Origin: an uncultured Anaerolineae bacterium
Lineage (GTDB): Bacteria > Chloroflexota > Anaerolineae > Anaerolineales > Villigracilaceae
DNA: 39,625 nt
Direction: 5' to 3'
Assembly (NCBI GenBank): GCA_903910795.1
Contig: CAIWAX010000157.1
Location: forward strand, 1 to 39,625
Below the pieces are notes generated by a model. That model had not been told where the DNA came from, did no database searches, and saw only the letters and a program-made list of their open reading frames with translations. Shown here one piece after another: positions 6,612-28,479 of this stretch (position 1 is its first letter; each line of letters starts with the position of its first letter). The position numbers were made by a program, and so were the translations under genes.

Positions 6612-7787
6612 ATGCCAGCCTCCCTCCCCCTCCGCTACGGAACCAACCCACAGCAAGCGCCCGCCCGCGTCTATATGAAAGATGGCGCGGAATTGCCCAT
6701 CACCATCTTGGGCGGATCACCGGGTTATATTAATCTACTGGACGGTCTGAATGCCTGGCAGCTTGTGCGTGAGCTGAAACAGGCCGCCGGGTTGCCTTCG
6801 GCAGCTTCCTTCAAACATGTCAGCCCATCTGGCGCGGCCATTGCCGTACCGCTTGGCGATACTCTGCGGAAAATATACTTTGTAGATGATCTGGAGCTTT
6901 CACCGTTGGCCGAAGCCTACGCGCGGGCGCGCGGTGTGGACCGCATGTCTTCGTTTGGCGACTTCATCGCGCTATCCGATACAGTGGATGTTTCCACCGC
7001 GCGCCTGATTGCGCGTGAGGTTTCGGATGGCGTGATCGCCCCTGGTTACGAACCTGCAGCTCTTGATATCCTCAGAGCAAAAAAGGGCGGCAAGTATGCA
7101 GTTGTGCAGATTGACCCTTCTTATGAGCCGGATCAAAACGAAACCCGCGAGGTGTTTGGCGTCAGTTTTGAGCAGCGCCGGCATGACCGTCCTGTAACTT
7201 CCGCGGATTTTTCCAACATTGTCTCTCTTAAACGGGATCTGCCTGCCGAAGCCGTGCGCGATATGAGTGTGGCCTGGATCACACTCAAGTACACCCAATC
7301 GAATTCGGTTTGTTTTGTTAAGGACGGGCAGACTATCGGTGTGGGCGCGGGGCAGCAGTCGCGGGTGCATTGTGTACGCCTGGCCGGGGGTAAGGCGGAT
7401 TTGTGGTATTTGCGGCAGCATCCGCGGGTGATGGGTCTCCCTTTTATTTCCGGGATTAAGCGTCCGGATCGTGATAATGCCATCGATCAGTTCCTGCAGC
7501 CGGGTGTGACGGCTGCCGAAAAGGCTAACTGGAAGAATATCTTCGGCGAACTTCCAGCGCAACTTAGCGATGATGAGCGGCGCGCCTGGCTGGACGGTTT
7601 GAGCGGTGTAACTCTGGGTTCAGATGCGTTTTTTCCCTTCCGCGACAGCCTGGATCGAGCTGCCCAGAGCGGTGTGCGCTATGTGCTGGAACCGGGCGGA
7701 TCCAACCGGGATGAAGATGTCATGGCGGCCTGTAATGAATACAGTATGACGATGGTCTTCACTGGTGTGCGCCTGTTCCATCATTAA
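6612..7787 (+). CDS. purH: AICAR transformylase (stand-alone PurH C-terminal domain)
   Basis: The protein transfers a formyl group from 10-formyl-THF to AICAR, the penultimate step of de novo IMP synthesis, in the cytoplasm. Diagnostic segments are LRYGTNPQQ at the N-terminus, the catalytic Lys-His pair in FKHVSPSGAA, DGVIAPGY, the substrate loop YTQSNSVCFVKDGQTIGVGA and the end segment SDAFFPFRDSLDRAA...PGGSNRDEDV. The 391-aa protein begins directly at the transformylase domain, with no MGS-like cyclohydrolase in front. That activity is encoded separately 157 nt downstream, so the usual bifunctional PurH is split and its domain order reversed. AAGGAAG is well placed before the ATG. Confidence 0.93.
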   Translation: MPASLPLRYGTNPQQAPARVYMKDGAELPITILGGSPGYINLLDGLNAWQLVRELKQAAGLPSAASFKHVSPSGAAIAVPLGDTLRKIYFVDDLELSPLAEAYARARGVDRMSSFGDFIALSDTVDVSTARLIAREVSDGVIAPGYEPAALDILRAKKGGKYAVVQIDPSYEPDQNETREVFGVSFEQRRHDRPVTSADFSNIVSLKRDLPAEAVRDMSVAWITLKYTQSNSVCFVKDGQTIGVGAGQQSRVHCVRLAGGKADLWYLRQHPRVMGLPFISGIKRPDRDNAIDQFLQPGVTAAEKANWKNIFGELPAQLSDDERRAWLDGLSGVTLGSDAFFPFRDSLDRAAQSGVRYVLEPGGSNRDEDVMAACNEYSMTMVFTGVRLFHH

Positions 7788-7883
7788 ACAGACGTTTGAC
7801 TGCGCCATTCCCGAGGCATCCGCAAATCAGAAGGGGCCTCGCTTTGAATATGAGTTCGTTTTTCGACGGATTGTCAATACCGA

Positions 7884-7904
7884 ACGATTTGCTTAGCAAA
7901 TCGT
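7884..7904. repeat. Palindromic repeat family A, copy 1 (intergenic)
   Basis: ACGATTTGC-TTA-GCAAATCGT is a perfect 9-bp inverted repeat with a 3-nt loop, between the two PurH genes. Closely similar elements occur at 17009-17033 and 17493-17517, both inside helicase-partner ORFs. It is a dispersed repeat rather than a gene-specific operator, though it could also act as an RNA hairpin between the two genes. Confidence 0.75.
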
Positions 7905-7943
7905 GGGTACTTTCCATTTTCTTTCATTTCTCGGAGTGTATAT

Positions 7944-8513
7944 ATGCCAATTGCCATACTTTCTGTACATGATAAAACTGGGCTGGTGGATTTTGCCAGG
8001 GGCCTGGCCGAACTGGGTTGGACGCTGCTGGCTTCGGGTGGGACGGCCCAGGCCCTGCGTGAGAATCACGTCCCTGTCCGTGAGGTGGCTGATTACACCA
8101 AATCGCCAGAAATTCTGGGCGGGCGGGTGAAAACGCTGCACCCTGCCATTCACGGCGGGCTGCTGGCGCGCCCCACGCAGGCTGACCATCTGCAATTGCT
8201 CAACCTGGGCTGGGATTATATCGATCTGGTGGCGGTCAATCTCTACCCGTTTGAACAAACCATCGCCAGACCGGGTGTAAGTTATGCTGAAGTGATCGAG
8301 AATATCGATATCGGGGGGGTGACTTTGATACGCGCGGCTGCCAAAAACCATGAAAGGGTGGGGTTGATTTGTGATCCTGCTGATTACGGAATGGTACTGG
8401 CGGAATTGCGCGGGGGCAGCCTGAGCGCTGAAACACGTAAGCGGCTGGCTATCAAGGGCTTTGCGCGCACTGCGCAGTATGATACCCGTATCCACGATTA
8501 TTTGAACAAATAA
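7944..8513 (+). CDS. purH: IMP cyclohydrolase (stand-alone PurH N-terminal domain)
   Basis: The protein closes the ring of FAICAR to IMP, the last step of de novo purine synthesis. The 189-aa protein is a complete MGS-like domain: [18 protein letters not shown] at the N-terminus, [11 protein letters not shown] phosphate-binding loop, [18 protein letters not shown] (the most diagnostic PurH motif) and [12 protein letters not shown]. It ends where bifunctional PurH would continue into the transformylase, and there is no remnant of that domain. GGAG lies 10 nt upstream of the ATG. It probably shares a transcript with the transformylase gene upstream, with a palindromic repeat in the 156-nt gap. 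Confidence 0.92.
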
Positions 8514-13560: not shown

Positions 13561-15240
13561 TCATAGCACTTCATTCTCGTATAGGATCTCGTATTTATAG
13601 CCCTGTTCGGTCAGGAATCTTTGCCGGTTGGCGGCGAAGGTCTGGTCAACCGTTTCGCGAGTGACGACCGTGTAGAAATGGGCGATGGCCCCATCGCTCT
13701 TGGGGCGCAGGATGCGTCCGAGGCGCTGGGCTTCTTCCTGGCGGCTGCCAAATGTCCCGGAAATTTCGATGGCAACGCTGGCATCCGGCAGGTCAATGCT
13801 GAAATTGGCGACCTTGGAAACCACCAGGATTTTCACCTGTCCGGTACGGAATTGTTCATAGAGTTTTTCTCGTTCTCGCACAGGGGTCTGTCCATTAATG
13901 AGCGGGGCCTGTATAAGCGTGGCGACTTCATCCAATTGGTCGAGGAACATGCCGATTACCAGTATGTTTTCACCGATGTGTCGTTCCAGGATGGCCTGCA
14001 TCACAGGGAGCTTGCGCGGGTTGTGCGCCGCTATCGAGTATTTCTCACGCTGCGCTGCTGTAGCGTACTCCATGCGGGCGCTTTCTGCCAGCGGCACGCG
14101 GATTTCATGACAAATGGCGGTAGCGATCCAGCCTTGCTTTTCCAAATCCCGCCACGGCACATTATATTTCTGCGGCCCAATCAGCGAGAAAACATCGCCT
14201 TCCATGCCATCTTCACGCACCAGCGTGGCGGTCAGCCCCAATCTGCGGCGGGCCTGAATTTCAGCGGTGATACGAAAAACGGGGGCGGGGAGCAGGTGGA
14301 CTTCATCATAGATGATCAAGCCCCAGTTGCGGGCGCTGAATAAGCCAAAATGCGGGTACTCATCAGCGGAGCCTCGTTTGCGATAGGTGAGGATCTGATA
14401 CGTGCTGACCGTGACAGGCCGGATATCTTTTTGTAAGCCCGAATATTCCCCCACCATATCTTCTGTCAGCGAGGTTTTATCCACCAGCTCGCTCATCCAT
14501 TGGCGGACGGCCACGGTGTTGGGAGTTAGAATCAACGTGGAAGTCTGTAACTGCGCCATGGTAGCCATACCCACAATGGTTTTTCCGGCACCGCAAGGCA
14601 GCACAATCACCCCACTGCCGCCGCTCGCCGCGCCGCCCGCGTGAAAGACTTCCGCAGACTCTTCCTGGTAGTGCCGCAAATGGAAAGGTTTCCCAGCGGT
14701 TGTTAACATGCGCAGCGAAATCGGTAAATCTTCACCCGCCACGTAACCGGCCAGATCTTCGGCGGGATAGCCGATTTGCAGCAGGGCCTGCTTCAGGTGC
14801 CCGCGCCGGCCAGGAGCTACCAGCGCGCGATGCTCATCCAGCCGCCCGTGCAGGTAGCGCGCGGTGGCTTTATGGGTTTGGATTTCCACCATCAAGGTAG
14901 TGTCTTCGCTGGTCACGATCAGGTTTTCGCCTTCGCGAATAAGTTTGACGCGCCCATAACGACCGATATATTCATCGATATCGCGCACCACGTTGGATGG
15001 CAATCCGTATTTGGAAAAATCCTCCAACTGTGCCAAAATCTCGGCGGCGGTCAGCCCGGATGAGGCCGCGTTCCACAGCGAAAGCGGCGTAATGCGGTAG
15101 GTATGGATGTATTCGGGGGATTTTTCCAATTCAGCAAAACGCGCCAGCGCATCGCGTGCGGCTTCGTAGCGCTCGTTTTGAACTTCGAGCAACAGACTTT
15201 TATCACCCTGAACGATCAATGGGTTAGATGGTGATGGCAT
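13561..15240 (-). CDS. XPB/ERCC3-type DNA helicase
   Basis: This is a superfamily 2 DNA translocase/helicase of the XPB family (559 aa), related to the TFIIH opening motor and to mycobacterial and archaeal XPB. An N-terminal region (residues 1-180) with the XPB damage-recognition-type fold precedes helicase domain 1: Walker A LPCGAGKT at 214-221, DEVH box at 312-315, GLTATLVREDG with the XPB-specific R-E-D motif near 342-344. Domain 2 ends in EAQRLGRILRPK (motif VI). All motifs look intact. ATG overlaps the TAA of the upstream partner by 1 nt (TAATG), so translation is coupled. Possible roles are repair, transcription-linked DNA opening or defence; no Bax1 nuclease is adjacent. Confidence 0.93.
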   Translation of the reverse strand: MPSPSNPLIVQGDKSLLLEVQNERYEAARDALARFAELEKSPEYIHTYRITPLSLWNAASSGLTAAEILAQLEDFSKYGLPSNVVRDIDEYIGRYGRVKLIREGENLIVTSEDTTLMVEIQTHKATARYLHGRLDEHRALVAPGRRGHLKQALLQIGYPAEDLAGYVAGEDLPISLRMLTTAGKPFHLRHYQEESAEVFHAGGAASGGSGVIVLPCGAGKTIVGMATMAQLQTSTLILTPNTVAVRQWMSELVDKTSLTEDMVGEYSGLQKDIRPVTVSTYQILTYRKRGSADEYPHFGLFSARNWGLIIYDEVHLLPAPVFRITAEIQARRRLGLTATLVREDGMEGDVFSLIGPQKYNVPWRDLEKQGWIATAICHEIRVPLAESARMEYATAAQREKYSIAAHNPRKLPVMQAILERHIGENILVIGMFLDQLDEVATLIQAPLINGQTPVREREKLYEQFRTGQVKILVVSKVANFSIDLPDASVAIEISGTFGSRQEEAQRLGRILRPKSDGAIAHFYTVVTRETVDQTFAANRQRFLTEQGYKYEILYENEVL

Positions 15241-17045
15241 TATTCAATCTCAATGATAAATTTACTCGCCAGTTTTGCGACTGCCTGATCAAATTTTGGC
15301 TGTTCTTTTTGTTGGAAGCTGACCGCGCGTGTGACCGGGTCGGATTGGAAGGGGCAGCGCAACTCAGCCAACATTTTCTTGAAAGTATCGAAAGATTCGT
15401 TATCCGGGAATTGGTAGCTGACAGTGATAACGCGCCTGATCTTAATCTGGCGGGCGGGCTGCGTGGCTGCATCGAAAGCTGTTTCTTTTGAGAATATGCT
15501 TTGGGCGGTTTCAGCGACTGGGGTGAATTCATCCATTTTGTGCTTTACCCGCACCGGCACACGACTGAGATTTTCTAACATGGAAAAAACAGCGTCCGGA
15601 TTGCGAACCAGGAATAGGCCGGAAGAAATTCTCTCGGCTATGAATTTTTCGGCTTCAATCGGCGGGTCCGTCATTTCGAGCAGGGAAAAGCCTTCGTACA
15701 ACGTAAACTGATCGGCATGACCAGACCATTCATCCAATTCGATTTGCACATTTGGCGGCAGGTCGCGCCCGCTGAGTTTTCTTAGCAGGGAATTCACATC
15801 CAAATCCGGATTTTTCACCTGCGCGGCGGCAACCAGGGCTTTCTTGAGTTGAAAAATGCCAACGTAGGCCACCTGCCCGCTCTGAGGATTGGACATTTGC
15901 TCTCCGAGCATGGCTATCTGGCGGAGGACAACCGCCGGGTAGAAGTCTGATTCAATGATGATATCAAAGTTAGGCTGAATAGTGACTTTTGGGGTGGTTT
16001 CGAGCCCCTTAAATAAATTAATAAATCGTTCGTTGATGCGAAAAGCCTTGAGATAACCGAGTTTGGGCAGCAATCCGGTGTAGGGCGCGGGATCATAGGC
16101 CACATCCACGAACCCCATGATGAGCGGGATGTTTTCGAGGAAGCGCTCAATGTAGCGCCCCTCAACACGCTCGAAGCCATCCTGTATGTCATCAGGAATG
16201 GGTTTATTGTTATTGTCCCAGTGACCAGCGCCTTCGTAAAAATTGCCGTAACGGGTGATGATCTCACCCCATTTATTTTTAGGTTCGGGCAGCTTTTCGG
16301 GGATGAGGAAGTAGCGGTGGTTGTCTCTGAGGTGCTCGATCAGCGATTGCGTACTGAGCCATTGACCTGCAGGACAATTTTGGAGCGCGGCCAGCAAAAA
16401 CTTGCGAATTTCCGGGAATTTGATGGTGGGCATCACCCCGGTGCCTGAACCCCGTATATAAAACCCATCCAGTTCGCCAACCACACTGGTTTTATAAAAC
16501 TCATTATTGCTGGATTGATCATATTCAGAAGCTGCCTTGATATCAAGGAGCGCATCGATGATACGCTTTTCCTGCGCTTCAGGAGAAAGATTAAGAAATT
16601 TTCCAATATCCGCATCATTGGCGTTGATGTAGTTTTCGTTGAAGGATTCTTCGGAACTGGTATAGCCGCGGTATTCCCCTTTTAAGGTGTAATAAACCAA
16701 CTTCAGGTTGAGCGCAAGTTTGTCAATAAGATCAATCCACATGTGCCCTGCGGGTTGGACGGGGTCAATTTGACCTGCGTTAGGTTCAAAGGTCAGGTTG
16801 CCAAATAGTTTGGCCATGCGATTCAAATCAGCACGCGGGATTACATTGCTGCGTGCCATGCGTTTAACGCTGTGTTCGCTGACGTAATCGAGGTAAGTAA
16901 ACAGATCGCGCAAAATGTCACGGTTATTGGAGAAGATTCGCAGGGGCTTGGGGTCGATGGGTTGTAATTGCATATTTAAGGTGATTTTCAAAAAGCTGAA
17001 ACGCTTTCGTACGATTTGCTTAGCGAATCGTACCTGGATATTCAT
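15240..17045 (-). CDS. Helicase-associated protein, XPB/Ssl2 N-terminal-like domain
   Basis: This is a large protein (601 aa from 17045) without helicase motifs. The region around KVTIQPNFDIIIESDFYPAVVLRQIAML resembles the XPB/Ssl2-like Helicase_C_3 domain found in proteins encoded beside bacterial XPB. The assignment is by pattern and context. The ORF overlaps the upstream gene by 1 nt (TGATG), which supports the start at 17045. A second plausible ATG at 16973 (MQLQPIDPKPLRIF) gives a cleaner N-terminus, because the first 24 codons include a palindromic repeat (17009-17033) read as [10 protein letters not shown]. Thus either the repeat extended the protein or it lies in a short untranslated spacer. 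The protein probably forms a complex with XPB. Confidence 0.75.
   Translation of the reverse strand: MNIQVRFAKQIVRKRFSFLKITLNMQLQPIDPKPLRIFSNNRDILRDLFTYLDYVSEHSVKRMARSNVIPRADLNRMAKLFGNLTFEPNAGQIDPVQPAGHMWIDLIDKLALNLKLVYYTLKGEYRGYTSSEESFNENYINANDADIGKFLNLSPEAQEKRIIDALLDIKAASEYDQSSNNEFYKTSVVGELDGFYIRGSGTGVMPTIKFPEIRKFLLAALQNCPAGQWLSTQSLIEHLRDNHRYFLIPEKLPEPKNKWGEIITRYGNFYEGAGHWDNNNKPIPDDIQDGFERVEGRYIERFLENIPLIMGFVDVAYDPAPYTGLLPKLGYLKAFRINERFINLFKGLETTPKVTIQPNFDIIIESDFYPAVVLRQIAMLGEQMSNPQSGQVAYVGIFQLKKALVAAAQVKNPDLDVNSLLRKLSGRDLPPNVQIELDEWSGHADQFTLYEGFSLLEMTDPPIEAEKFIAERISSGLFLVRNPDAVFSMLENLSRVPVRVKHKMDEFTPVAETAQSIFSKETAFDAATQPARQIKIRRVITVSYQFPDNESFDTFKKMLAELRCPFQSDPVTRAVSFQQKEQPKFDQAVAKLASKFIIEIE
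17009..17033. repeat. Palindromic repeat family A, copy 2 (within helicase-partner ORF 5' end)
   Basis: GTACGATTTGC-TTA-GCGAATCGTAC is an 11-bp inverted repeat with one G-T wobble. It shares ACGATTTGCTTAGC with copy 1 and the 16-mer TTTCGTACGATTTGCT with copy 3. It lies in the first codons of the 15240-17045 ORF on the minus strand and is in frame without stops. Confidence 0.75.
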
Positions 17046-18439
17046 CAGGGCTTGATCGTTTTAATGACAAATCCTGTTTTTTTGAGAACTTTCTCCACAT
17101 TAGGGCGAGATTCTTTCGGAAAGGCAATGTATTGTTCGCTTAGGATCACGATATTATTTTTTAGTTCGCGCTCAAGTTGAACGCGCAGGCTTAAATCACG
17201 AACGCAGGCGACCAGCAGGTTGTCGTGCTGAAGGGTTTTCCCCCAGCGAGCGTTGACCGTTTCGAGAGCTTTGCCAAAGCTTGGAATATTTTCTGCCAGC
17301 CAGCGCGAGAGTGGCGCCCGACGTTGGGCAGGGCTGGCCTGTCCAAGCTTGACCAGGCTCGGCGAGGCCAACAGGACGTTATTTTCGATGGCGAGACGCG
17401 CAAGGCTGTTGAGCTGGGTGAGATCGTGGAAGGGGATCAGGCGCAAATCCACTATCAGGGAACCTGGTTTGGATGTGGTGTCTGCCCATTTCGTACGATT
17501 TGCTAAGTAAATTGTGCCGGGATATTTATTGGACGAGGCAGGGTCGGGGGTACTGGGCTCAATGGGTAAATGCACTGGAGCGAGGCGATAATGGGGAACG
17601 GAATCAATATCCAGCCGCGATAGCAAGCCCAAATCCCAGCCTTTTTTTAGTAATTTTTCGGCGGGCGGAATCATACCCCCAAAACAGTATATTTTCAGGG
17701 CAGGCTCGAGAGTTTTCGGGTTTGTCCAGTCTGTGCTGGATAATAACTTGAGCACAGCTTCGGTGGGTGAGATCGAGGCGGGTACGGTAGGTTTGGGGGC
17801 GCCCAAGGCATTTCGCCAGGCTTCGGTCTGCCAGATGGCGATGGTGGCAAGCGAGAATGGGAAATCTTTGATATAAAGGCTGCCGTGTTTTATGCGGATC
17901 GGCATCTGGTCATGGGAGATGGCCGGGCTGCCGCCAACCAGTTCGAGCAGTTTGCGGCGGACAGAGGTCTCATTTTCCAGGCCGGCTTTTTCATCCCGGA
18001 CGGCGGTTAAAAGTGGAAGATAGGGGGCGAATTCTGCAGGCATGGCAAAGCGCCAGCGTTCAAGCTGGACGGTATCGCCACGCATTTTGATTTCAGCCAT
18101 AATAACCAATCCGCGCCGGACGAGATTTCTTTTAACGGTTTCAAAAATAGGCTTATATTTTTGAGAATATGTGCCATGTTGGTTGCTGACAGGATAGAGT
18201 CTCTCGAAAAAGGAGATGTCCACTTCGCCGGTTTCATGCAGCAGGCGCAGAGTAATAGTTTCCTCTGGGGTGAGCGCGGCTATGTTTTCCGCCACGCCAA
18301 TGGATGAGACATAAAAACTGGCATAGGAAGTGCGCGAAACAGTTTCTTTGTCGCTGAATCCACGCGCTTTCCGGATGGCATTTAAATCGGCGTCAGGAAG
18401 TTCAGCGCACATGCTGTGAAGCAATTGAAGAATGGACAT
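17045..18439 (-). CDS. Helicase-associated protein, first gene of XPB operon
   Basis: This is a 464-aa protein of uncertain function. Residues about 40-140 look like tandem winged-helix elements (LTPEETITLRLLHETGEVD, FETVKRNLVRRGLVIM). The C-terminus (RDLSLRVQLERELKNNIVILSEQ) resembles the helicase-associated proteins found with XPB. From memory, mycobacteria also encode a large helicase-associated protein next to XPB, so this and the next gene may be a split equivalent. I move the start from the ORF-track TTG (18475) to ATG 18439: a TTGACA/TACAAT promoter lies exactly in front, so the TTG would be upstream of transcription. The predicted start of transcription coincides with the ATG, suggesting a leaderless mRNA. 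A linker near the middle (TIYLANRTK) is encoded by a family A palindromic repeat. Confidence 0.75.
   Translation of the reverse strand: MSILQLLHSMCAELPDADLNAIRKARGFSDKETVSRTSYASFYVSSIGVAENIAALTPEETITLRLLHETGEVDISFFERLYPVSNQHGTYSQKYKPIFETVKRNLVRRGLVIMAEIKMRGDTVQLERWRFAMPAEFAPYLPLLTAVRDEKAGLENETSVRRKLLELVGGSPAISHDQMPIRIKHGSLYIKDFPFSLATIAIWQTEAWRNALGAPKPTVPASISPTEAVLKLLSSTDWTNPKTLEPALKIYCFGGMIPPAEKLLKKGWDLGLLSRLDIDSVPHYRLAPVHLPIEPSTPDPASSNKYPGTIYLANRTKWADTTSKPGSLIVDLRLIPFHDLTQLNSLARLAIENNVLLASPSLVKLGQASPAQRRAPLSRWLAENIPSFGKALETVNARWGKTLQHDNLLVACVRDLSLRVQLERELKNNIVILSEQYIAFPKESRPNVEKVLKKTGFVIKTIKP
17493..17517. repeat. Palindromic repeat family A, copy 3 (inside coding sequence)
   Basis: GTACGATTTGC-TAA-GTAAATTGTGC is a decayed inverted repeat. 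Its left part is identical over 16 nt (TTTCGTACGATTTGCT, 17489-17504) to the left part of copy 2 (17005-17020). On the minus strand it is read in frame as TIYLANRTK within a Pro/Ser/Thr-rich linker, so it probably inserted into the gene and was tolerated there. Confidence 0.7.
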
Positions 18440-18445
18440 ACCGCG

Positions 18446-18475
18446 ATTGTACGGTATGAATAGCAGGGCTGTCAA
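18446..18475 (-). promoter_or_regulatory. Promoter of the XPB operon (leaderless)
   Basis: On the minus strand TTGACA (18470-18475) and TACAAT (18446-18451) are separated by 18 bp. The -10 ends 6 nt before ATG 18439, so the transcript should begin at or within a base or two of the start codon. An inverted repeat CATACCG...CGGTATG (18437-18443 and 18452-18458) brackets the -10 and the start codon and may be an operator. Confidence 0.7.
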
Positions 18476-18633: not shown

Positions 18634-18885
18634 ATGAATACGAAACTCTCTACCACCGGACGTATCACCATCCTTTTGGGAAAACAGCAGGCCGAAACTG
18701 GGCAGCGCATATCGCCGCGCAAACTGGCCGAGCAGGCGGGCGTGCCAAAGGATTTTATCTACAGGCTGGATGCGGGTCAGGCGCGGCATATCGATCTGGA
18801 GTCGCTGGCGAAATTGTGCACGGCGTTGAAATGCCAGCCACAGGATATTTTGGTTTGGGAAGCAAAGTATGCCGAATCCATTTGA
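18634..18885 (+). CDS. Small XRE-family HTH regulator of the Wadjet operon
   Basis: This is an 83-aa protein consisting of a single Cro/C1-type helix-turn-helix domain: RITILLGKQQAE, then ISPRKLAEQAGVPKDFIYRLDAGQ (the turn and recognition helix) and ESLAKLCTALKCQPQDIL, typical of short HTH_26/YozG-like regulators. ATG 18634 is chosen because the upstream TTG start is the promoter -35. The gene overlaps jetA by 17 nt, so both are on one transcript and the regulator is translated first. It probably represses the operon through GAACAATTGTTC. Short XRE genes leading defence operons are a recurrent pattern; whether this one senses plasmid, stress or only its own level is unknown. Confidence 0.88.
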   Translation: MNTKLSTTGRITILLGKQQAETGQRISPRKLAEQAGVPKDFIYRLDAGQARHIDLESLAKLCTALKCQPQDILVWEAKYAESI

Positions 18886-20326
18886 TATTCTGCCGCTTAA
18901 CTTATTCAATCTGTTCAGTACAATGGGTTTTGGCTCCCTGCAGCGGCATTATATGGCGATTTTGCTGCGGATATATACCATGGCAGAGTTCAACCGCTTT
19001 GGACTGACAAGGGAAGTGGTAGTGGATGAAATCGTTCACTACTTGAAGGAGGCTAACGCCGAGGGGGAGATCGCCGCGGAAATGGCGAACGATGCTGTGA
19101 GGGCGGATTTGCCCGCCAGCATGGAAACCGAATCTGTTTCGATCACAGGACAAAAATCCGAGCAGTTGTACACCTCATATCTGATCCGTCGTTTGGCGGA
19201 TACCGGGTGGATTGAACGCGAGCAACATGCCGATTATTCTGAAACCATTATCCTGCCGGATTATGCCTTTACGCTGTTGGAAGCCTTGCGTACCATTCAG
19301 GAACAAAAACCGCGCGAATTTACTGGACAACTTTACGCCGCGCACCAATTGATTACCTCGGCAACCACCAACAAGGATTTTTCACCGGCACTGGCTGTTA
19401 CGCAAACATATGAAAATGTGCGACAGGTGGTGCGCGGGTTGAGCGAACTGAACCAGAACATACGCCGTTATGTGGAACGGGCCACCCGGCAAACCGAAGT
19501 TGCCACGCTTTTGCGCCTGCAATTTGATGATTACACCCAGACGCTGGGGCCTGCTTACCATGCCCTGAAGACATCCGATCATGTCTCGCGCTACCGGCGC
19601 GACATTATCAACCAGATCGAAAGCTGGCAGTTGGATGGCGACTGGCTGACCCATACCGCCGAAGAGCTGGCCGCGCAAAGCCGGCTTTCCCCAGCCCAGG
19701 CTGAGTCTGAAATCAGCCATTATCTGACGTTTATCTCCAATCAACTTGAGGGGTTGGATCCACTGCTGGCGGATATTGACAGCCGTCACGCCCAATACTT
19801 ACGCACATCCCTGCGCCAGGTACGTTACCAGCTTGGCAGCGCCGATGGAAGTTTCAAAGATAAACTGGTTTCGCTGGCCAAAGGTTTATCGGCTTTGCGT
19901 ACCAGTGGGCTGACTGAGCTTCCAGATGATGCACCGGGGCTGCGGCAAATGCCGGTGCGCTCGCCGGATGCACGCAGTTTTTACACTCCGCCCCAACGCC
20001 GCGCACCCTTCACTCCCGATGACATCATCCTGCCAGTCCTGCATCCCGATGACCTGCTGGCCTTGCATGCCGCCACCATGCAGGATGTAACCCAGGCTTT
20101 TTCACCCGAAAAAGTCAACCGCAAAGTGATGGGGTTTTTCAACGGTCAAAAACGCTTGAATATTATCGAAATCCCAACCGAAATTTGTCAGGATTTGCAC
20201 TGGCTGACCACTATTATCGCCTACGCCCACCATCCCGAAGTCAGTTACGGGCTGGAGACGGCAGCAGGTGAGCCGGTGCGAGTGGGCAATTACCGGGTGG
20301 CGCCTTTCGATTTAACGCGTAAATAA
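18869..20326 (+). CDS. jetA: Wadjet component JetA (MksF-like kleisin)
   Basis: This is the kleisin-like subunit of the Wadjet SMC complex, which closes the ring around DNA by bridging the JetC ATPase heads and carrying JetB. The 485-aa protein starts with the family-like segment FDILPLNLFNLFS...HYMAILLRIY, then a winged-helix-like region (LYTSYLIRRLADTGWIE) and long helical stretches (YENVRQVVRGLSELNQNIRRYVERAT). The C-terminal part includes an SPDARSFYTPPQRRAPF linker before the last wing. The identification relies on these patterns plus the complete jetBCD order downstream; the Wadjet subtype cannot be assigned by eye. It overlaps the XRE gene and is separated from jetB by 101 nt that contain a family B repeat. 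Confidence 0.88.
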   Translation: MPNPFDILPLNLFNLFSTMGFGSLQRHYMAILLRIYTMAEFNRFGLTREVVVDEIVHYLKEANAEGEIAAEMANDAVRADLPASMETESVSITGQKSEQLYTSYLIRRLADTGWIEREQHADYSETIILPDYAFTLLEALRTIQEQKPREFTGQLYAAHQLITSATTNKDFSPALAVTQTYENVRQVVRGLSELNQNIRRYVERATRQTEVATLLRLQFDDYTQTLGPAYHALKTSDHVSRYRRDIINQIESWQLDGDWLTHTAEELAAQSRLSPAQAESEISHYLTFISNQLEGLDPLLADIDSRHAQYLRTSLRQVRYQLGSADGSFKDKLVSLAKGLSALRTSGLTELPDDAPGLRQMPVRSPDARSFYTPPQRRAPFTPDDIILPVLHPDDLLALHAATMQDVTQAFSPEKVNRKVMGFFNGQKRLNIIEIPTEICQDLHWLTTIIAYAHHPEVSYGLETAAGEPVRVGNYRVAPFDLTRK

Positions 20327-20339
20327 CTCACAACCTGCC

Positions 20340-20364
20340 ATGGATATCCCGGTTTCAGTACGGG
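20340..20364 (+). repeat. Dispersed repeat family B, copy 1 (jetA-jetB gap)
   Basis: ATGGATATCCCGGTTTCAGTACGGG occurs 13 nt after the jetA stop. It differs at a single position from the copy at 28455-28479, also just after a gene end. CCCG and CGGG can pair across the middle. It is a short interspersed repeat of unknown nature. Confidence 0.75.
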
Positions 20365-20427
20365 TGCGTATCATAGGTAGCCCTATTTGCCGCAACCAAT
20401 CAATCTCAACCTCCCACGGAACCCAGC

Positions 20428-21054
20428 ATGCCTTTCTCGTCTGAAACTCTGCTTACTGACATCCCTGAAAAATCACGCCGCGATGTGCCGCGCATCGTCA
20501 ACCGCTTGCTCGGGCAGACTTTCCTCTACCAGGACGTGGATACCGACAAGGACGATTACTATTTTGTTCACCGGCATCGCCCGGTTTTTGAAGGACTGCT
20601 CGAACTGGCTGGTTTTAGCCTGCTGCATGATGATTATCACCGCATCTTTCAGGCTGTTTCTGATTTCAGTTACTGCCGCGCGCGCTACAAGCTTGATGAA
20701 AGCCTGATGATCGTTGTTTTGCGTAAACTGTACGAGGAGAAAATCGAGCACCTCAGCCTGGCCAACGATCCGGTGGTCACGATTGGCGAGGTACGCGAAG
20801 AATACCGTACCATTACAGGCAAGGAACGCGACCTGGGCGTAATCCAATACGAAGCTCTCTTACGTCGTTTGCGTTCGATCGGGTTGATTGACACCATCGA
20901 CGGCCGCTCGATCGATGTGCGTGACAGTGAATCCCGGCTTCGTCTGCGCGGTTCGGTCAGGCTGATCTTGCCGATCCAATCAGCCGATGAGTTGGAAGCC
21001 TGGCTGAGGAAATACAGGACTGGCGGCGATGAAAGTGAAAGCGAAGAAGAGTAA
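20428..21054 (+). CDS. jetB: Wadjet component JetB (MksE-like, DUF4194)
   Basis: This is the small winged-helix accessory subunit (208 aa) of the Wadjet SMC complex. It dimerises and binds the kleisin JetA. Recognisable features are the start PEKSRRDVPRIVNRLLGQTFLYQD, the core YHRIFQAVSDFSYCRARYKLDESLMIVVLRKLYEE, VTIGEVREEYRTI and LLRRLRSIGLI (second winged helix), and a C-terminal acidic tail (DESESEEE). Length and order match MksE/DUF4194 proteins. The start ATG 20428 has only a weak ribosome-binding site (CGGA). Confidence 0.9.
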   Translation: MPFSSETLLTDIPEKSRRDVPRIVNRLLGQTFLYQDVDTDKDDYYFVHRHRPVFEGLLELAGFSLLHDDYHRIFQAVSDFSYCRARYKLDESLMIVVLRKLYEEKIEHLSLANDPVVTIGEVREEYRTITGKERDLGVIQYEALLRRLRSIGLIDTIDGRSIDVRDSESRLRLRGSVRLILPIQSADELEAWLRKYRTGGDESESEEE

Positions 21055-21116
21055 AAAGTCAAAAATATCTTCTGCCCATCTTTTCCGTGCGCTTTGCCAA
21101 CATCGTCCCGACACCT

Positions 21117-21139
21117 GCACTTGCGTTCCAGTGCAAGTG
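21117..21139 (+). other. Stem-loop in the jetB-jetC gap
   Basis: CACTTGC and GCAAGTG (21118-21124, 21133-21139) form a 7-bp stem with an 8-nt loop in the 198-nt space between jetB and jetC. There is no T-run and no convincing second promoter. It could affect mRNA stability or the subunit ratio. The 70-aa ORF over this gap has no support. Confidence 0.4.
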
Positions 21140-21252
21140 TGCCCTGGCAGAGCCGGGAGCAAACCGCACCGGGATAATCCCATCCTCAGAATTGTTTGAC
21201 GAAACCAACAACAACGCTGCCCGGCAATTACTACGCAACAGGATAAACCTCC

Positions 21253-24200
21253 ATGAAACTTCTAACCCGAATCCGCCTTGTCAACTGGCATTTGTTTGAA
21301 AACACCACTATCAACTGCCAGGGAACCACTTATTTTATCGGCATTAATGGCGCGGGCAAGTCGACCGTGCTTGACGCCGTGCAGTTTGCCCTGGTAGGCG
21401 GGCAGCGGGATGTGCGTTTTAACCAGGCGGCGCTCAGCGGCGGCAAGCGTACGCTGGCAAGTTACGTGCGCGGCGAGCTGGGCACCGAAGGTCAGCGTTA
21501 CCTGCGCGCAGATGCCACGGGTGTGGTGGCGCTCGAATTCAAGAACCCGGATGGCACGTTCTTCACGCACGGAGCGGTCATCGATGCGTATGAGGATGGC
21601 CGCAACCCGGATGTGGCTTATTTTATTGTTCACAACGCAGCGATCAATGATGATTGGTTCTTCAAGTCACCCGGCCAGGTTTTCGATACGCGCAGTTTCA
21701 AGCGACATCTTGAAAACTTCGCTTTGCCTGCCGCAGGCCGCGCCCAGATCTTTTCGCGCCTGGAAGATTACCGGGTGCACCTGCTCAATCGTCTTGGGCA
21801 GCTTAAAGATACCTTTCCCGCCAAAATCGTCAAAGGCCTGGCATTCAGCCCATTGACCGATATTCGTTCCTTTGTGCATACCTACCTGCTCGATGAAAAC
21901 CTGGTGGATGTCAAAACCCTGCAAGCCCAACTTGAAACTTTACGACACTTTGAGAGCCTGGCTGTCAATGTCCGCGAGCGGATCGACTCTCTCAGCCGTA
22001 TTGAAGAGCTCGACAAAGAACGAACTGCTAATCGCCGCCGGCGCATTACCAATGCTTATGTCGCCCAGCGAGCGCAAGCGGATGTTTTTCTGGGCACCTT
22101 GAAAGCGCGCCGCCTGGAACTGGATGAAGTGAAACTGGCTCTCAGCCATGCTGAGCTTGAACGCGATGATCTGGCCCGTAACCTGGTGTTTGCCCAATCC
22201 GCGTTGACCGATGCGGAAGTTGCTCTGCGCACGGATCAGACTGCTGTGCACGAAAAAGACCTGCGCGAGAAAATAGCAGTTTTGAGCCACGAATTGGCTC
22301 TCCTGCAACAACGTAAACTTGAAATTGAGCGTTCGCTGGCGCGCGAACTGGCTGATGTAAAAAAGCTGCGCAATTATTTGCTGGCCGATAAAACCCCCAT
22401 TCCACCTGCCCTGAGTACATTTATCGCTGAAACCGTTGGGCGGATCACGCCCGAGGCAATCCGGGGGGTTCAAGAAGCCATCATGAGTCTCGCCCAAATT
22501 TTCTCCCGTTCAGAAACCCTGCTGATTGAAAAAGCTGCCGCTCTGCGTGAGGAAGCTTCAGGGCTCGAATCTGACATCCGCAAACTGCGGACCGGCGACC
22601 GCGATGCAAGCGTTGAGGTTGAAGCACCCAATACCGCAAAACTGCGGCGCATGATCCGCTCTGAACTTGGCCTGGGCGCCAACGAAGTCACATACCTGTG
22701 CAATGAGCTGATAATCCCAGATCTCACCTGGCAGGATGCGGTGGAAGGCATTCTTGGTATGAACCGCTTTGTCCTGCTGGTGCCGCCCGCGCAGTATGAG
22801 GCAGCCATGCAGCTTTATCGTCAAAATAAATCCGGTTTGCATGGCGCGATTTTGCTTGATAGCGATGCCATCATTCGCCACGGATCGCATAGTACAGCAT
22901 CTGAAAATGTCCTGGCATCCGAGGTTTCCACCAACGGGCCAGCCGCTCAGGCCTTCATTAACTTGATCCTGGGCAACTATACCAAATGCAATAGTATTGA
23001 AGAACTCCGACCCCACCGAACCGCCATCACGCGTGAATGCTTTGTGCGGCGCAACTATACCGACAGCCATCTAAACCCGCAGGTTTACAAGCGCTGGTTT
23101 ATCGGCGAACGCGCCATCCCACGTCAAATAGAACAACACCAGGCGCGGCTGGATGAAATTGCCAGCGAGATGATCCAACTTAATGAGCGTGCCAACGCGC
23201 TGCGCGAAAGATTGGCCCTGACACACGATAAAATCCGCCCGCTGGTGGAGCTCGAAGCGGCGCTGCCAACTTTGAGCCGGGTTGCGCCGCTCGAAGCGGA
23301 ACTCACCACTTTGAGGGATGAACTTTCCCGGCTGGATACCCGCTCGATCGACATACTCAAAGCCGAAGTGGAGCAGTGCCAATCGGTATTGCGAAAAGCG
23401 CAGGTTGAAGTTTCGTCCATCGAACGGAAACTTGGCAGTCTTGAAGGGGATGTCAAACATCTTGAAATGGAAGTTGTTCCCGGCCTGGAAAAATCTGCTG
23501 ATGATGCGCTGCAGAGCGCCGAGAATTTGCTTGTTCTGGAAAATGTTGACGAAAAGGGAGCGCAGGATTTGCGCTCCGATATTCAAAAAGAATACGAACG
23601 CCGCCGCGAACGCCAGCCGCTGGAAGTGATCCTCCAAAATGCAATCCACTACGAAAGCGATTACCAGACTGCTGAACAACGTTCGCGCGACCGCCTGAGG
23701 GAGGCCAAGCAGGAGTATTCGCTGCACTACGACTTCGGATACGATGAAACAGAATACGCAACACGCTATACGACCGAAAAAGAAAAGCTGGTGAATTCTG
23801 AGTTACCGGGCTATGAGACCCAAATCGCGCGCCAGCGCGGCCTGGCCGAGCAGGAACTGGTAGAAAATTTCATCCACCGCCTGCGCGAACAAATTGAGGA
23901 TGCCCGTCAGCAGTTGGCACATTTGAACAGTACCCTGGCTGGTCTGCGCTTTGGTGGTGAACGCTTTGAGTTTATCAACCAACCCGCTCCGCAGGTCAAA
24001 CAGGTTTATGACATGATCATGGACAGCCAGCAGGTCATGGGTATGGCGCTTTTTGATTCGGATTTTCGCCAGAAGCACCAGCAAGGTTGGGACCTGTTGT
24101 TTGAACGCCTGACCAGGAACGATGAGGAGAACATCGAACTGCGCGAACTGCAGGATTACCGCCGGTATTTACAATACGACATCCGCATTCATTATCCCAA

Positions 24201-24570
24201 CGGCGACCGGGCGCTGCTCAGCCAAATTAACGCCAAAAAGTCGGGCGGCGAAACCACCACGCCGTTTTACGTAGCCATGGCTGCTTCCTTTGCGCAGGCA
24301 TACAGGTTGAACCAGCCGCGCCCCTCAGATACCATCCGCCTGGCCCTTTTTGATGAAGCTTTTGGCAAAATGGATACAGCCCGCACTGCCAGCGCCCTGC
24401 AGTTTATGCGCCAGGCCGGGTTGCAGGTGCTGCTGGCTACCCCGCCTGATAAATCCGGGTCGCTGCTGCCGTATGTAGACAGCGTCTGCACCGTGGTTCG
24501 AAAGAATAACCACTCATTCGTGATTGAAATTGATAAAAGCGAGATGATCGCGGAGTTGGAAAAAGAGTAG
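21253..24570 (+). CDS. jetC: Wadjet component JetC (MksB-like SMC ATPase)
   Basis: This is the SMC-type motor ATPase of Wadjet (1105 aa). Two copies with JetA and JetB are known to extrude DNA loops and to recognise small circular DNA. The N-terminal head has Walker A GINGAGKST at residues 30-38. Two long coiled-coil arms (for example ESLAVNVRERIDSLSRIEELDKERTANRR and later AEVEQCQSVLRKAQVEVSS) flank a hinge region near residues 470-620. The C-terminal head has an ABC-signature-like KSGGETTTPF near 995 and Walker B LALFDEAFGKMD near 1030. All ATPase motifs appear intact. The start at ATG 21253 has AGGA upstream and gives the typical N-terminus LLTRIRLVNWHLFE. Confidence 0.95.
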   Translation: MKLLTRIRLVNWHLFENTTINCQGTTYFIGINGAGKSTVLDAVQFALVGGQRDVRFNQAALSGGKRTLASYVRGELGTEGQRYLRADATGVVALEFKNPDGTFFTHGAVIDAYEDGRNPDVAYFIVHNAAINDDWFFKSPGQVFDTRSFKRHLENFALPAAGRAQIFSRLEDYRVHLLNRLGQLKDTFPAKIVKGLAFSPLTDIRSFVHTYLLDENLVDVKTLQAQLETLRHFESLAVNVRERIDSLSRIEELDKERTANRRRRITNAYVAQRAQADVFLGTLKARRLELDEVKLALSHAELERDDLARNLVFAQSALTDAEVALRTDQTAVHEKDLREKIAVLSHELALLQQRKLEIERSLARELADVKKLRNYLLADKTPIPPALSTFIAETVGRITPEAIRGVQEAIMSLAQIFSRSETLLIEKAAALREEASGLESDIRKLRTGDRDASVEVEAPNTAKLRRMIRSELGLGANEVTYLCNELIIPDLTWQDAVEGILGMNRFVLLVPPAQYEAAMQLYRQNKSGLHGAILLDSDAIIRHGSHSTASENVLASEVSTNGPAAQAFINLILGNYTKCNSIEELRPHRTAITRECFVRRNYTDSHLNPQVYKRWFIGERAIPRQIEQHQARLDEIASEMIQLNERANALRERLALTHDKIRPLVELEAALPTLSRVAPLEAELTTLRDELSRLDTRSIDILKAEVEQCQSVLRKAQVEVSSIERKLGSLEGDVKHLEMEVVPGLEKSADDALQSAENLLVLENVDEKGAQDLRSDIQKEYERRRERQPLEVILQNAIHYESDYQTAEQRSRDRLREAKQEYSLHYDFGYDETEYATRYTTEKEKLVNSELPGYETQIARQRGLAEQELVENFIHRLREQIEDARQQLAHLNSTLAGLRFGGERFEFINQPAPQVKQVYDMIMDSQQVMGMALFDSDFRQKHQQGWDLLFERLTRNDEENIELRELQDYRRYLQYDIRIHYPNGDRALLSQINAKKSGGETTTPFYVAMAASFAQAYRLNQPRPSDTIRLALFDEAFGKMDTARTASALQFMRQAGLQVLLATPPDKSGSLLPYVDSVCTVVRKNNHSFVIEIDKSEMIAELEKE

Positions 24571-24581
24571 GCTGTGGATAT

Positions 24582-24621
24582 ATGGATATCCCGGTTTATA
24601 TACCCTGAGGGCCAGTACGGG
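24582..24621 (+). repeat. Dispersed repeat family B, copy 2 (jetC-jetD gap, long form)
   Basis: This has the same ATGGATATCCCGGTTT and CAGTACGGG ends as the other copies, but with 15 extra nt (ATATACCCTGAGGGC, containing a CCCTGAGGG mini-hairpin) between them. It lies 11 nt after the jetC stop. Its last bases, with the next two, form GGGAG, the Shine-Dalgarno-like stretch 9 nt upstream of the jetD start codon. Confidence 0.7.
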
Positions 24622-24632
24622 AGTAAGAGCTG

Positions 24633-25874
24633 ATGCAAATTTCTTTTAGCCCTTCGCCAGATGTTGCTTTTGTACTGAATACGCTGCTGGATACTTATGA
24701 ACGCCGCGCAACTCACAACGCTCTACGAAGCGGGGAGTATGCAGCGCGCGCCATTAAAGTTGATATTTCGGATGTGCCCATCCCGGCTTATTTCTCGCAG
24801 ACCGATCCCGGCCCGCGCATTTTAGCCAACGAACAATTCACAGCGCTTGAAAAGGCCGGTATGATCCATCTTGCTTGGCTGCCCGGCGAAACCGGTCATA
24901 TTCTACAGACCATTAAACTGGATGCGGAACAGGCCACCCGCCTTTATCCAGTGCTGAACCGCACGGCGTTGACCGCCCAGCGGGTGCGTCTCGAAGCCTT
25001 GCTTTTGGCTGATAAATTCCGCTTTGTCGATGACTGGCGGGCCAGGGCAATCCGGCAGATCCTGGCGAATCTGCGCGCCGGAAAATCTCCAATGCCCTTC
25101 AGTCTGACAGATAGCGAACTGGACAGCGACCTTCTGACAGTTTTGGAAGCCATCCCGGCGCTGCAGGCTGAAACGCCTTTCCGCGTTTTCAGTGTGCGTA
25201 TCTTCAATGACAGCAAGCGGCTGGAAGTGATCAAGGGCCAGCTTGTCAGCCTGGCGCGGATTGGGAATCCGGAATGGAAACGACTGCCAGCCGAGGAAGT
25301 TTTGCGGGAACTAAACCTGGTGCCCAACCCGAATTATCTACACCTCTCCGGGAACTGGCAACTTGGGCTGGAAAGCGGGGAAATTCTTTCGGTAGGCGGT
25401 TTCTTTCCTGCATTGGGGTTTCCCGCCGCTCAAACTGTTAACCTGCGGAGCGTGGCGGCTCACGCGAAGGCCATCCTGTCTATTGAAAATCTGACCACTT
25501 TCCACGAATTTATCCGTGCCCAGGATGGCAGTTATGCTGTCATCTGCACTTATGGAAATCCTGCGCCCGCAGTGCGGCGTTTGTTGCGCCTGGTTCCTGA
25601 TGAAACCCCGATCCTGCATTGGTCGGATCTGGATTACGGCGGTTTCAACATTCTCAGCCAGTTGCGGCGACTGGTCAGCGAGCGCATCCAACCCTACCGC
25701 ATGGATATCGCCACGTTGGATGGCAACTACGAGCGTTCCCGGCCGCTGACGCCCGCGGATAAGAGCAACCTCAAGAAACTGCTATTCCGGCCAGAACTGC
25801 GCGATATGCGCCCGGTGATTGAGCATTTACTCAAACGTGGGGTGAAATTGGAGCAGGAAGGCGTGGAAGTTTAG
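24633..25874 (+). CDS. jetD: Wadjet component JetD (MksG-like nuclease, Toprim-type)
   Basis: This is the nuclease subunit that cleaves the plasmid once the JetABC motor has extruded it. The 413-aa protein has a DUF3322-like N-terminal half and a DUF2220/Toprim-like C-terminal half. Toprim-type acidic residues are visible: Glu in LSIENLTTF (about residue 283) and the D-x-D in HWSDLDYGGFNIL (about residue 330), a close match to the JetD catalytic loop. The C-terminus continues with RMDIATLDGNYERSRPLT and helical segments. The gene is apparently intact, so the system should be active. The start ATG 24633 uses GGGAG that partly belongs to a dispersed repeat. Confidence 0.92.
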   Translation: MQISFSPSPDVAFVLNTLLDTYERRATHNALRSGEYAARAIKVDISDVPIPAYFSQTDPGPRILANEQFTALEKAGMIHLAWLPGETGHILQTIKLDAEQATRLYPVLNRTALTAQRVRLEALLLADKFRFVDDWRARAIRQILANLRAGKSPMPFSLTDSELDSDLLTVLEAIPALQAETPFRVFSVRIFNDSKRLEVIKGQLVSLARIGNPEWKRLPAEEVLRELNLVPNPNYLHLSGNWQLGLESGEILSVGGFFPALGFPAAQTVNLRSVAAHAKAILSIENLTTFHEFIRAQDGSYAVICTYGNPAPAVRRLLRLVPDETPILHWSDLDYGGFNILSQLRRLVSERIQPYRMDIATLDGNYERSRPLTPADKSNLKKLLFRPELRDMRPVIEHLLKRGVKLEQEGVEV

Positions 25875-28454: not shown

Positions 28455-28479
28455 ATGGATATCCCGGTTCCAGTACGGG
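28455..28479 (+). repeat. Dispersed repeat family B, copy 3
   Basis: ATGGATATCCCGGTTCCAGTACGGG lies 5 nt after the M24 stop, with one mismatch to copy 1. Ten nt further on, AAAGGAGG (28489-28496) is a perfect Shine-Dalgarno without a properly spaced start codon. Confidence 0.75.

Follow-up and report, generated by a model that had tools for sequence, protein, structure and literature searches.

Until now, the main examples of in-frame protein-coding palindromes have come from Rickettsia and certain genomes rich in REPs; they have mainly been treated as a rickettsial feature, and intragenic REPs were reported later. The Rickettsia palindromic elements (RPEs; Ogata et al. 2000, 2002) are about 105-150 bp long and form several families, many members of which lie in-frame within unrelated conserved genes and others of which are intergenic (PMC10969869, PMC2229807). 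REPs are palindromes of 20-40 bp that often constitute species-specific families; they are mostly extragenic, some being located inside ORFs, as reported for O. terrae, R. conorii and others, and apparent N-terminal copies are often extragenic since translation starts downstream of them (PMC3733652). Bacterial MITEs with ORFs (ERIC/RU-1, Correia and the Coxiella MITEs) are small non-autonomous elements, about 100-200 bp in length, that are bounded by terminal inverted repeats and TSDs and form in-frame gene fusions (PMC2229807, PMC2759123, PMC5896051). PARCEL, palindromic amphipathic repeat coding sequences, are outlined in PMC2996958 as intragenic tandem repeats common to several microbes. 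Here we describe a freshwater Anaerolineae bacterium (Chloroflexota) whose genome holds very short DNA repeats by the hundred, most of them palindromic; some have been inserted in-frame into genes.

Results

Repeat copies in the window

The window, a stretch of 39,625 nucleotides, is contig C157 of the 5.01-Mb, 496-contig assembly of this bacterium (G000), which is 92% complete. The best named matches of its XPB helicase belong to uncultured Anaerolineae (Chloroflexota), several of which come from lakes and groundwater according to their record titles. The pattern ACGATTTGCTTAGCAAATCGT, with up to 3 mismatches allowed, retrieved three copies of ACGATTTGCTNAGCAAATCGT (Table 1); these are real, the chance expectation being none (0 matches in 100 dinucleotide shuffles), and Rfam gave no match within the window. 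The initial annotation had reported an exact 16-mer common to copies 2 and 3, stop-free readings of both in different frames and an intergenic third copy, and all of this was confirmed. The 16-mer TTTCGTACGATTTGCT is found at 17005-17020 and 17489-17504. On the minus strand copy 3 is read as TIYLANRTK in the ORF 17045-18475, and copy 2 gives a stop-free 10-residue reading in the ORF 15240-17045 if translation starts at 17045. Copy 1 lies between a gene ending at 7787 and a gene starting at 7944. The copies at 17009 and 17493 have the ends AATATCC...CGTACGAAA in common, and a 38-mer search of the first 818 kb of the genome found no further copy with them; since these two alone share such ends there, one was probably derived from the other.

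Two further observations concern the surroundings of the repeats. The purH functions appear to be split over two genes, AICAR formyltransferase-type (6612-7787) and IMP cyclohydrolase-like (7944-8513), and a family A element sits between them. A complete Wadjet type I system (jetA, jetB, jetC and jetD; PADLOC) occupies 18869-25874, and all three spacers of this system hold family B-like repeats.

Table 1. Coordinates of genes and repeat copies in the window
Feature	Position	Strand	Basis or remark
Family A long element between two purH-like genes, intergenic	7877..7917	-	A_long consensus, 2 mismatches
Palindromic core copy 1, perfect ACGATTTGCTTAGCAAATCGT	7884..7904	.	pattern search, exact
DNA repair helicase XPB (NF045503)	13561..15240	-	
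Second XPB-helicase partner gene P0002, from conserved ATG	15240..16973	-	homologue starts
Sister copy, 41 nt, 83% identical to 17489-17529	17005..17045	-	spacer between two partner genes
Palindromic core copy 2, GTAC...GTAC ends	17009..17033	.	pattern at 17011-17031, 1 mismatch
XPB-helicase partner gene P0001, insertion carrier; conserved start probably 18439	17045..18475	-	
In-frame insertion, 39 nt, family B-like, core inside, encodes KYPGTIYLANRTK	17489..17527	-	missing in 9 homologues
Palindromic core copy 3, within 39-nt insertion	17493..17517	.	pattern at 17495-17515, 2-3 mismatches by strand
Family B-like short repeat ATGGATATCCCGGTTTCAGTACGGG, jetA/jetB spacer	20340..20364	+	
Family B-like head, jetB/jetC spacer	21168..21183	-	
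Family B-like short repeat, jetC/jetD spacer	24582..24606	+	
Family B-like short repeat, intergenic	28455..28479	+	

Copies in the helicase-partner genes

Pfam, NCBIfam and PADLOC gave no family name for either helicase-partner gene. P0001 was aligned with nine homologues, among them one from the same genus (G004), its own paralogue (G000:C213) and two in G008. These are 54-72% identical to it by tblastn, the G004 protein being 72% identical by tblastn and 74% in the multiple alignment. The peptide KYPGTIYLANRTK, which comprises exactly 13 residues and directly precedes the conserved WADTT segment, is missing in 9/9 homologues, and the insert has clean alignment ends. An AlphaFold2 model computed from this alignment, with a mean pLDDT of 69, is least confident at residues 290-314, and the insert (residues 305-317), which overlaps this stretch, is predicted to lie largely in a flexible linker. 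Judged by these homologues, the 17493 copy is a true coding insertion of 39 nt, presumably translated as 13 codons.

The initial annotation had taken both copies as coding and had placed the 17009 copy at an N-terminal extension; the former claim stands for 17493, and for 17009 most likely neither it nor the extension holds. The homologues of P0002 start at the ATG equivalent to 16973, the G004 homologue has an in-frame TGA two codons upstream of this ATG, and the spacers upstream of the homologues vary in length and sequence. The ORF start at 17045 is mechanical and does no more than overlap the stop codon of the upstream P0001. Given the start shared by the homologues and the in-frame stop in G004, we take the 17009-17033 copy to be intergenic, most likely lying in the spacer before the conserved ATG. 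In relatives (L078, L082 and L081 junctions; G034, G017 and G043), this spacer carries other, unrelated repeat-like sequences, AAAGGTCGAAAGTC...GACTTTCGACCT and CACTTGACACTTGAAACTT, as if the region between the two partner genes were a repeat hot spot.

Repeat families and their common core

Instead of the single element initially proposed, at least three repeat families were found to share the core CGATTTGCTNAGCAAATCG, in 818 kb and then in 1.27 Mb of the genome. The exact 19-bp core occurs at 76 sites in the 5.0-Mb genome. A whole-genome search with a 15-base core and 1 mismatch gave 116 forward and 128 reverse matches, each palindrome being scored on both strands, and the reversed-sequence control gave 0. 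The core is near-invariant over its 19 bp, the outer position being C/G in 99%, and its sequence was not found in the literature searched.

Family A is a 24-mer, ATGGAAAGTACCCATAAGTTCAGT, often in tandem (57 spacings of 24), for which folding yields a stem of 5 bp only; its long form of 39 nt has the core in place of the centre. Family B, TGGAATAATCCCGGTACTTGATTGGGATT, also has a long form and shows tandem spacings of 27 and 25. In family C the core lies within a longer hairpin, and the long form nests a second core in the first. In each family the step from short to long form adds 15 nt: GGTAC[TT]GATTGG becomes GGTAC[GATTTGCTAAGCAAATC]GATTGG in B, GCC[AA]GC becomes GCC[GATTTGCTAAGCAAATC]GC in C, and CCCA[TAAG]TTC becomes CCCA[CGATTTGCTAAGCAAATCG]TTC in A, which does not retain the left C. 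The core insertion site of families B and C is the hairpin tip.

The principal units, of 24, 27 and 39 nt, and the 15-nt step are all divisible by three, between genes as well as within them, and insertion thus need not shift the reading frame. The 25-nt variant of family B, which is not a multiple of three, was inside genes in 0/13 clusters versus 44/216 for the others, a difference that is only suggestive (Fisher p about 0.08). A second palindrome, AGCCTGAGGCT, inserted in L050, was considered as a further family and rejected as single-copy. Many core copies lie at most about 100 nt from G000 contig ends (for example C10:37, C33:40, C94:16 and C187:56); the repeats thus probably broke the assembly, and the true copy number is probably higher.

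Insertions into genes across the genome

The initial annotation had called for a genome search for units inside genes. The 1.27 Mb used were sampled by contigs, most of them chosen for holding copies, and the counts represent no unbiased genome census; genes were called with a simple codon model on a fragmented MAG (902 genes, coding density 0.81). The search yielded 229 repeat clusters, those at contig edges being excluded and three weak core matches without family flanks (L031:13510, L030:3055 and L020:19267) left out: 44 are inside predicted genes, 140 between genes and 45 overlap a gene end. A control with the reversed pattern gave 0. Random insertion would place about 80% of them inside genes, and the observed depletion has a binomial p of about 1e-86 on contigs that were picked for copies and not for the position of the copies in genes. 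With 44/229 clusters inside genes at a coding density of 0.81, genes are strongly avoided.

Exact 24-nt in-frame insertions, the empty sites of which were read from homologues in G001, G004 and G008, are present in genes that we take, from sequence recognition and homologue alignment, to encode a NuoE/F-like fusion (TELMGTFH), MTHFR, a DUF2298-like membrane protein, glutamate synthase GltB (compared with an 84% identical homologue) and an NnrU-like protein. The ATPase domain of a histidine kinase contains five MESTHEFN-type units and a RecJ-like protein four TELMGTFH-type units; overall, proteins are predicted to gain between 5 and about 40 amino acids from the repeats. The reading of family A is MESTH in 16 clusters, TELMGTFH in 9 and WKVPISS in 3. 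It follows that no single peptide is required, which argues against a selected peptide function. Family A is flanked by AT..AT in most copies, and an exact duplication is not seen in all gene insertions with a clear empty site.

Comparison with homologues indicates that the core alone adds 15 nt in L050 and L016; 5 codons are gained in this way in L050 and in the NuoE/F-like gene. A gain of 15 nt keeps the frame, and as the main readings RFAKQI, DLLSKS and ICLANR are stop-free, the core could live inside genes. A small contig of the relative G008 (L316, G008:C300), with SSB, a sliding-clamp-like gene and another gene, has cores at 999 and 2405, each in a gene, and may be a plasmid or phage. 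One of these two copies has a clear empty site in G010 and G004: the G008 gene reads GTC AC[GATTTGCTTAGCAAATC]GC GAC versus the empty GTG AC[CT]GC GAT. Alignments of the L051, L071, L030, L185 and L181 insertions are ragged, so that their exact size is not proven, and L063:6361 and L035:4059 were rejected as clean insertions on homologue alignment.

Distribution among relatives and viral contigs

Family A has 187 exact copies in G000 and 0 in 60 relatives, and among 395 genomes of the class a search returned one single site, with 1 mismatch. The core was found in four relatives (3 copies in G004, 5 in G008, 1 in G010 and 1 in G023), with unrelated flanks, and in none of 297 other genomes of the class. 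By these genome comparisons, the burst happened recently and hardly extends beyond the species, family A being essentially limited to G000. The exact 19-mer core is also present in 11 IMG/VR viral contigs (L303-L313), again in unrelated flanks, and three scrambled control palindromes of like form matched 0 IMG/VR contigs; the viral contigs suggest a possible route of core spread. In L306 and L311 the core flanks can pair, by eye, as if the core stood at a hairpin tip. Five of the 11 contigs (5/11) come from one metagenome (3300021090), and some viral cores fall within ORFs that look like those for portal, prohead protease and tyrosine recombinase.

A search for a mobilising enzyme of the RAYT/Y1_Tnp kind returned a single Y1_Tnp match in G000, and no match flanked by repeat copies in this incomplete assembly. 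In the match (L202:10321-12006, G000:C496) a receiver-like region at the N terminus is joined to a Y1 transposase-like domain at the C terminus. Several congeners have Y1-containing ORFs of comparable length, and the hairpin AATCCCGGT near the match looks like a terminator.

Discussion

We consider it very probable, as far as the description goes, that these are mobile short palindromic repeats inserted in-frame into genes and presumably translated there. The genome would have been invaded by very short, non-autonomous palindromes of several families that settled mostly between genes, and in-frame copies would be kept where the added peptide is tolerated, in linkers or turns. As the 15-, 24-, 27- and 39-nt units keep the frame, insertions at tolerant sites would survive and others be purged, a reading drawn from the depletion in genes. 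The elements would be selfish or neutral and not useful to the host protein.

The core may spread as the 17-bp palindrome GATTTGCTNAGCAAATC, which would replace the two bases of a C-NN-G site for a net gain of 15 and would prefer the tips of existing hairpins, generating the nested mosaic forms. The C-NN-G rule is based on an exact fit in families B and C, a looser one in family A and three gene comparisons, in two of which (2/3) the empty sites come from homologues with other changes. The likeliest route would be the copying or insertion of the hairpin at exposed loops by a trans-acting activity, possibly a structure-specific enzyme, HUH-type or other, that acts in trans on single-stranded hairpins. 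Taken alone, the enzyme-driven mechanism is a tentative proposal that we hold at somewhat below an even chance. We give the same odds, somewhat below even, to the idea that CGATTTGCTNAGCAAATCG is a mobile palindrome in its own right, 17-19 bp long, which Anaerolineae and viruses exchange and which inserts at C-NN-G, often at hairpin tips, with a net gain of 15 bp. To our knowledge, the mobile elements described so far are all far larger than this palindrome.

The main rival is polymerase template switching, or microhomology-primed copying between hairpins, with no dedicated enzyme. The nested growth of hairpins in family C, where a core lies inside a core, the tandem 24-mers and the gene insertions without a consistent target duplication speak for it, and at the empty sites of the MTHFR homologues and of the G004 homologue of the DUF2298-like gene stands ATGGAA, which resembles the head of family A. 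Template switching, however, hardly explains why the same exact 19-mer recurs in unrelated flanks in other species and viral contigs, and we regard it as unlikely, though a serious contender. That RAYT (TnpA_REP) transposases move the repeats, which would then be members of the known REP superfamily and fall in genes by chance, is clearly less probable. In their size of 20-40 bp, their palindromy, their preference for spacers and their occasional presence within genes they agree with REPs (PMC3733652), but the tags GTAG and CGTC are absent from the ends of A and B copies (each is near at most 2/175 A_short copies per end and 0/29 B_short copies), family A is a tandem 24-mer with a stem of merely 5 bp, and the lone Y1_Tnp match is fused to a receiver-like region and has counterparts of similar length in congeners without the repeats.

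A selected binding site evolved in place, whether a nucleoid, partition, restriction or uptake signal, would account for the near-invariance of the core, its outer C/G and the many intergenic copies. Homologues, however, show insertion and no build-up of point mutations, and the copies are nested and mosaic, with hardly any elsewhere in the class; this explanation is very improbable. Hardly credible at all are ancestral protein segments with coincidental DNA similarity, for which nothing speaks beyond the open reading through the copies. The initial annotation had named homologues with the same peptide and no DNA repeat as the sign of such ancestry; this comparison, run for the 17493 copy, found the peptide missing in every aligned P0001 homologue, which refutes ancestry for this copy. 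For five further genes, too, the homologues lack the peptides at the exact positions, and at 17009 the spacer reading takes the place of this rival.

Mobile repeats inserted in-frame, our preferred reading, thus give a Chloroflexota lineage in which a recent burst, nearly limited to one species, has left candidate in-frame insertions by the dozen, with clear empty sites in congeners. These empty sites make the insertion rules, the tolerance of proteins and the mobiliser directly testable, and the nested mosaics illustrate a way in which a tiny core could give rise to larger palindromic repeats.

How do these repeats compare with the described systems? The likeness to Rickettsia palindromic elements noted in the initial annotation is apt in behaviour: palindromic families lie in-frame in unrelated conserved genes, are missing in homologues and have intergenic copies too. 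By contrast with the long stem-loops of RPEs (about 105-150 bp), compared here by description, the units are of 15, 24, 27 and 39 nt, the repeats are read in at least 3 frames, one core is nested modularly in several families, and the host, within Anaerolineae, belongs to another phylum. With REPs they have in common a palindrome of 20-40 bp (weak in family A with its short stem), a high copy number and a mostly extragenic location, and the 17009 copy, apparently N-terminal and really in a spacer, follows the correction made for REPs (PMC3733652). They differ from REPs by the tandem 24- and 27-mers, and no RAYT flanked by copies was found in the incomplete assembly. Like MITEs, they are small non-autonomous repeats joined in-frame to genes; unlike them, they measure only 15-39 bp. 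A clear TSD was not made out. They resemble PARCEL, as outlined in PMC2996958, in being palindromic coding repeats, and depart from that outline of an intragenic tandem repeat by their dispersed single insertions into housekeeping genes. The repeats are therefore a variant of dispersed coding palindromes, set apart from RPEs by length and lineage and from REPs by tag and RAYT features.
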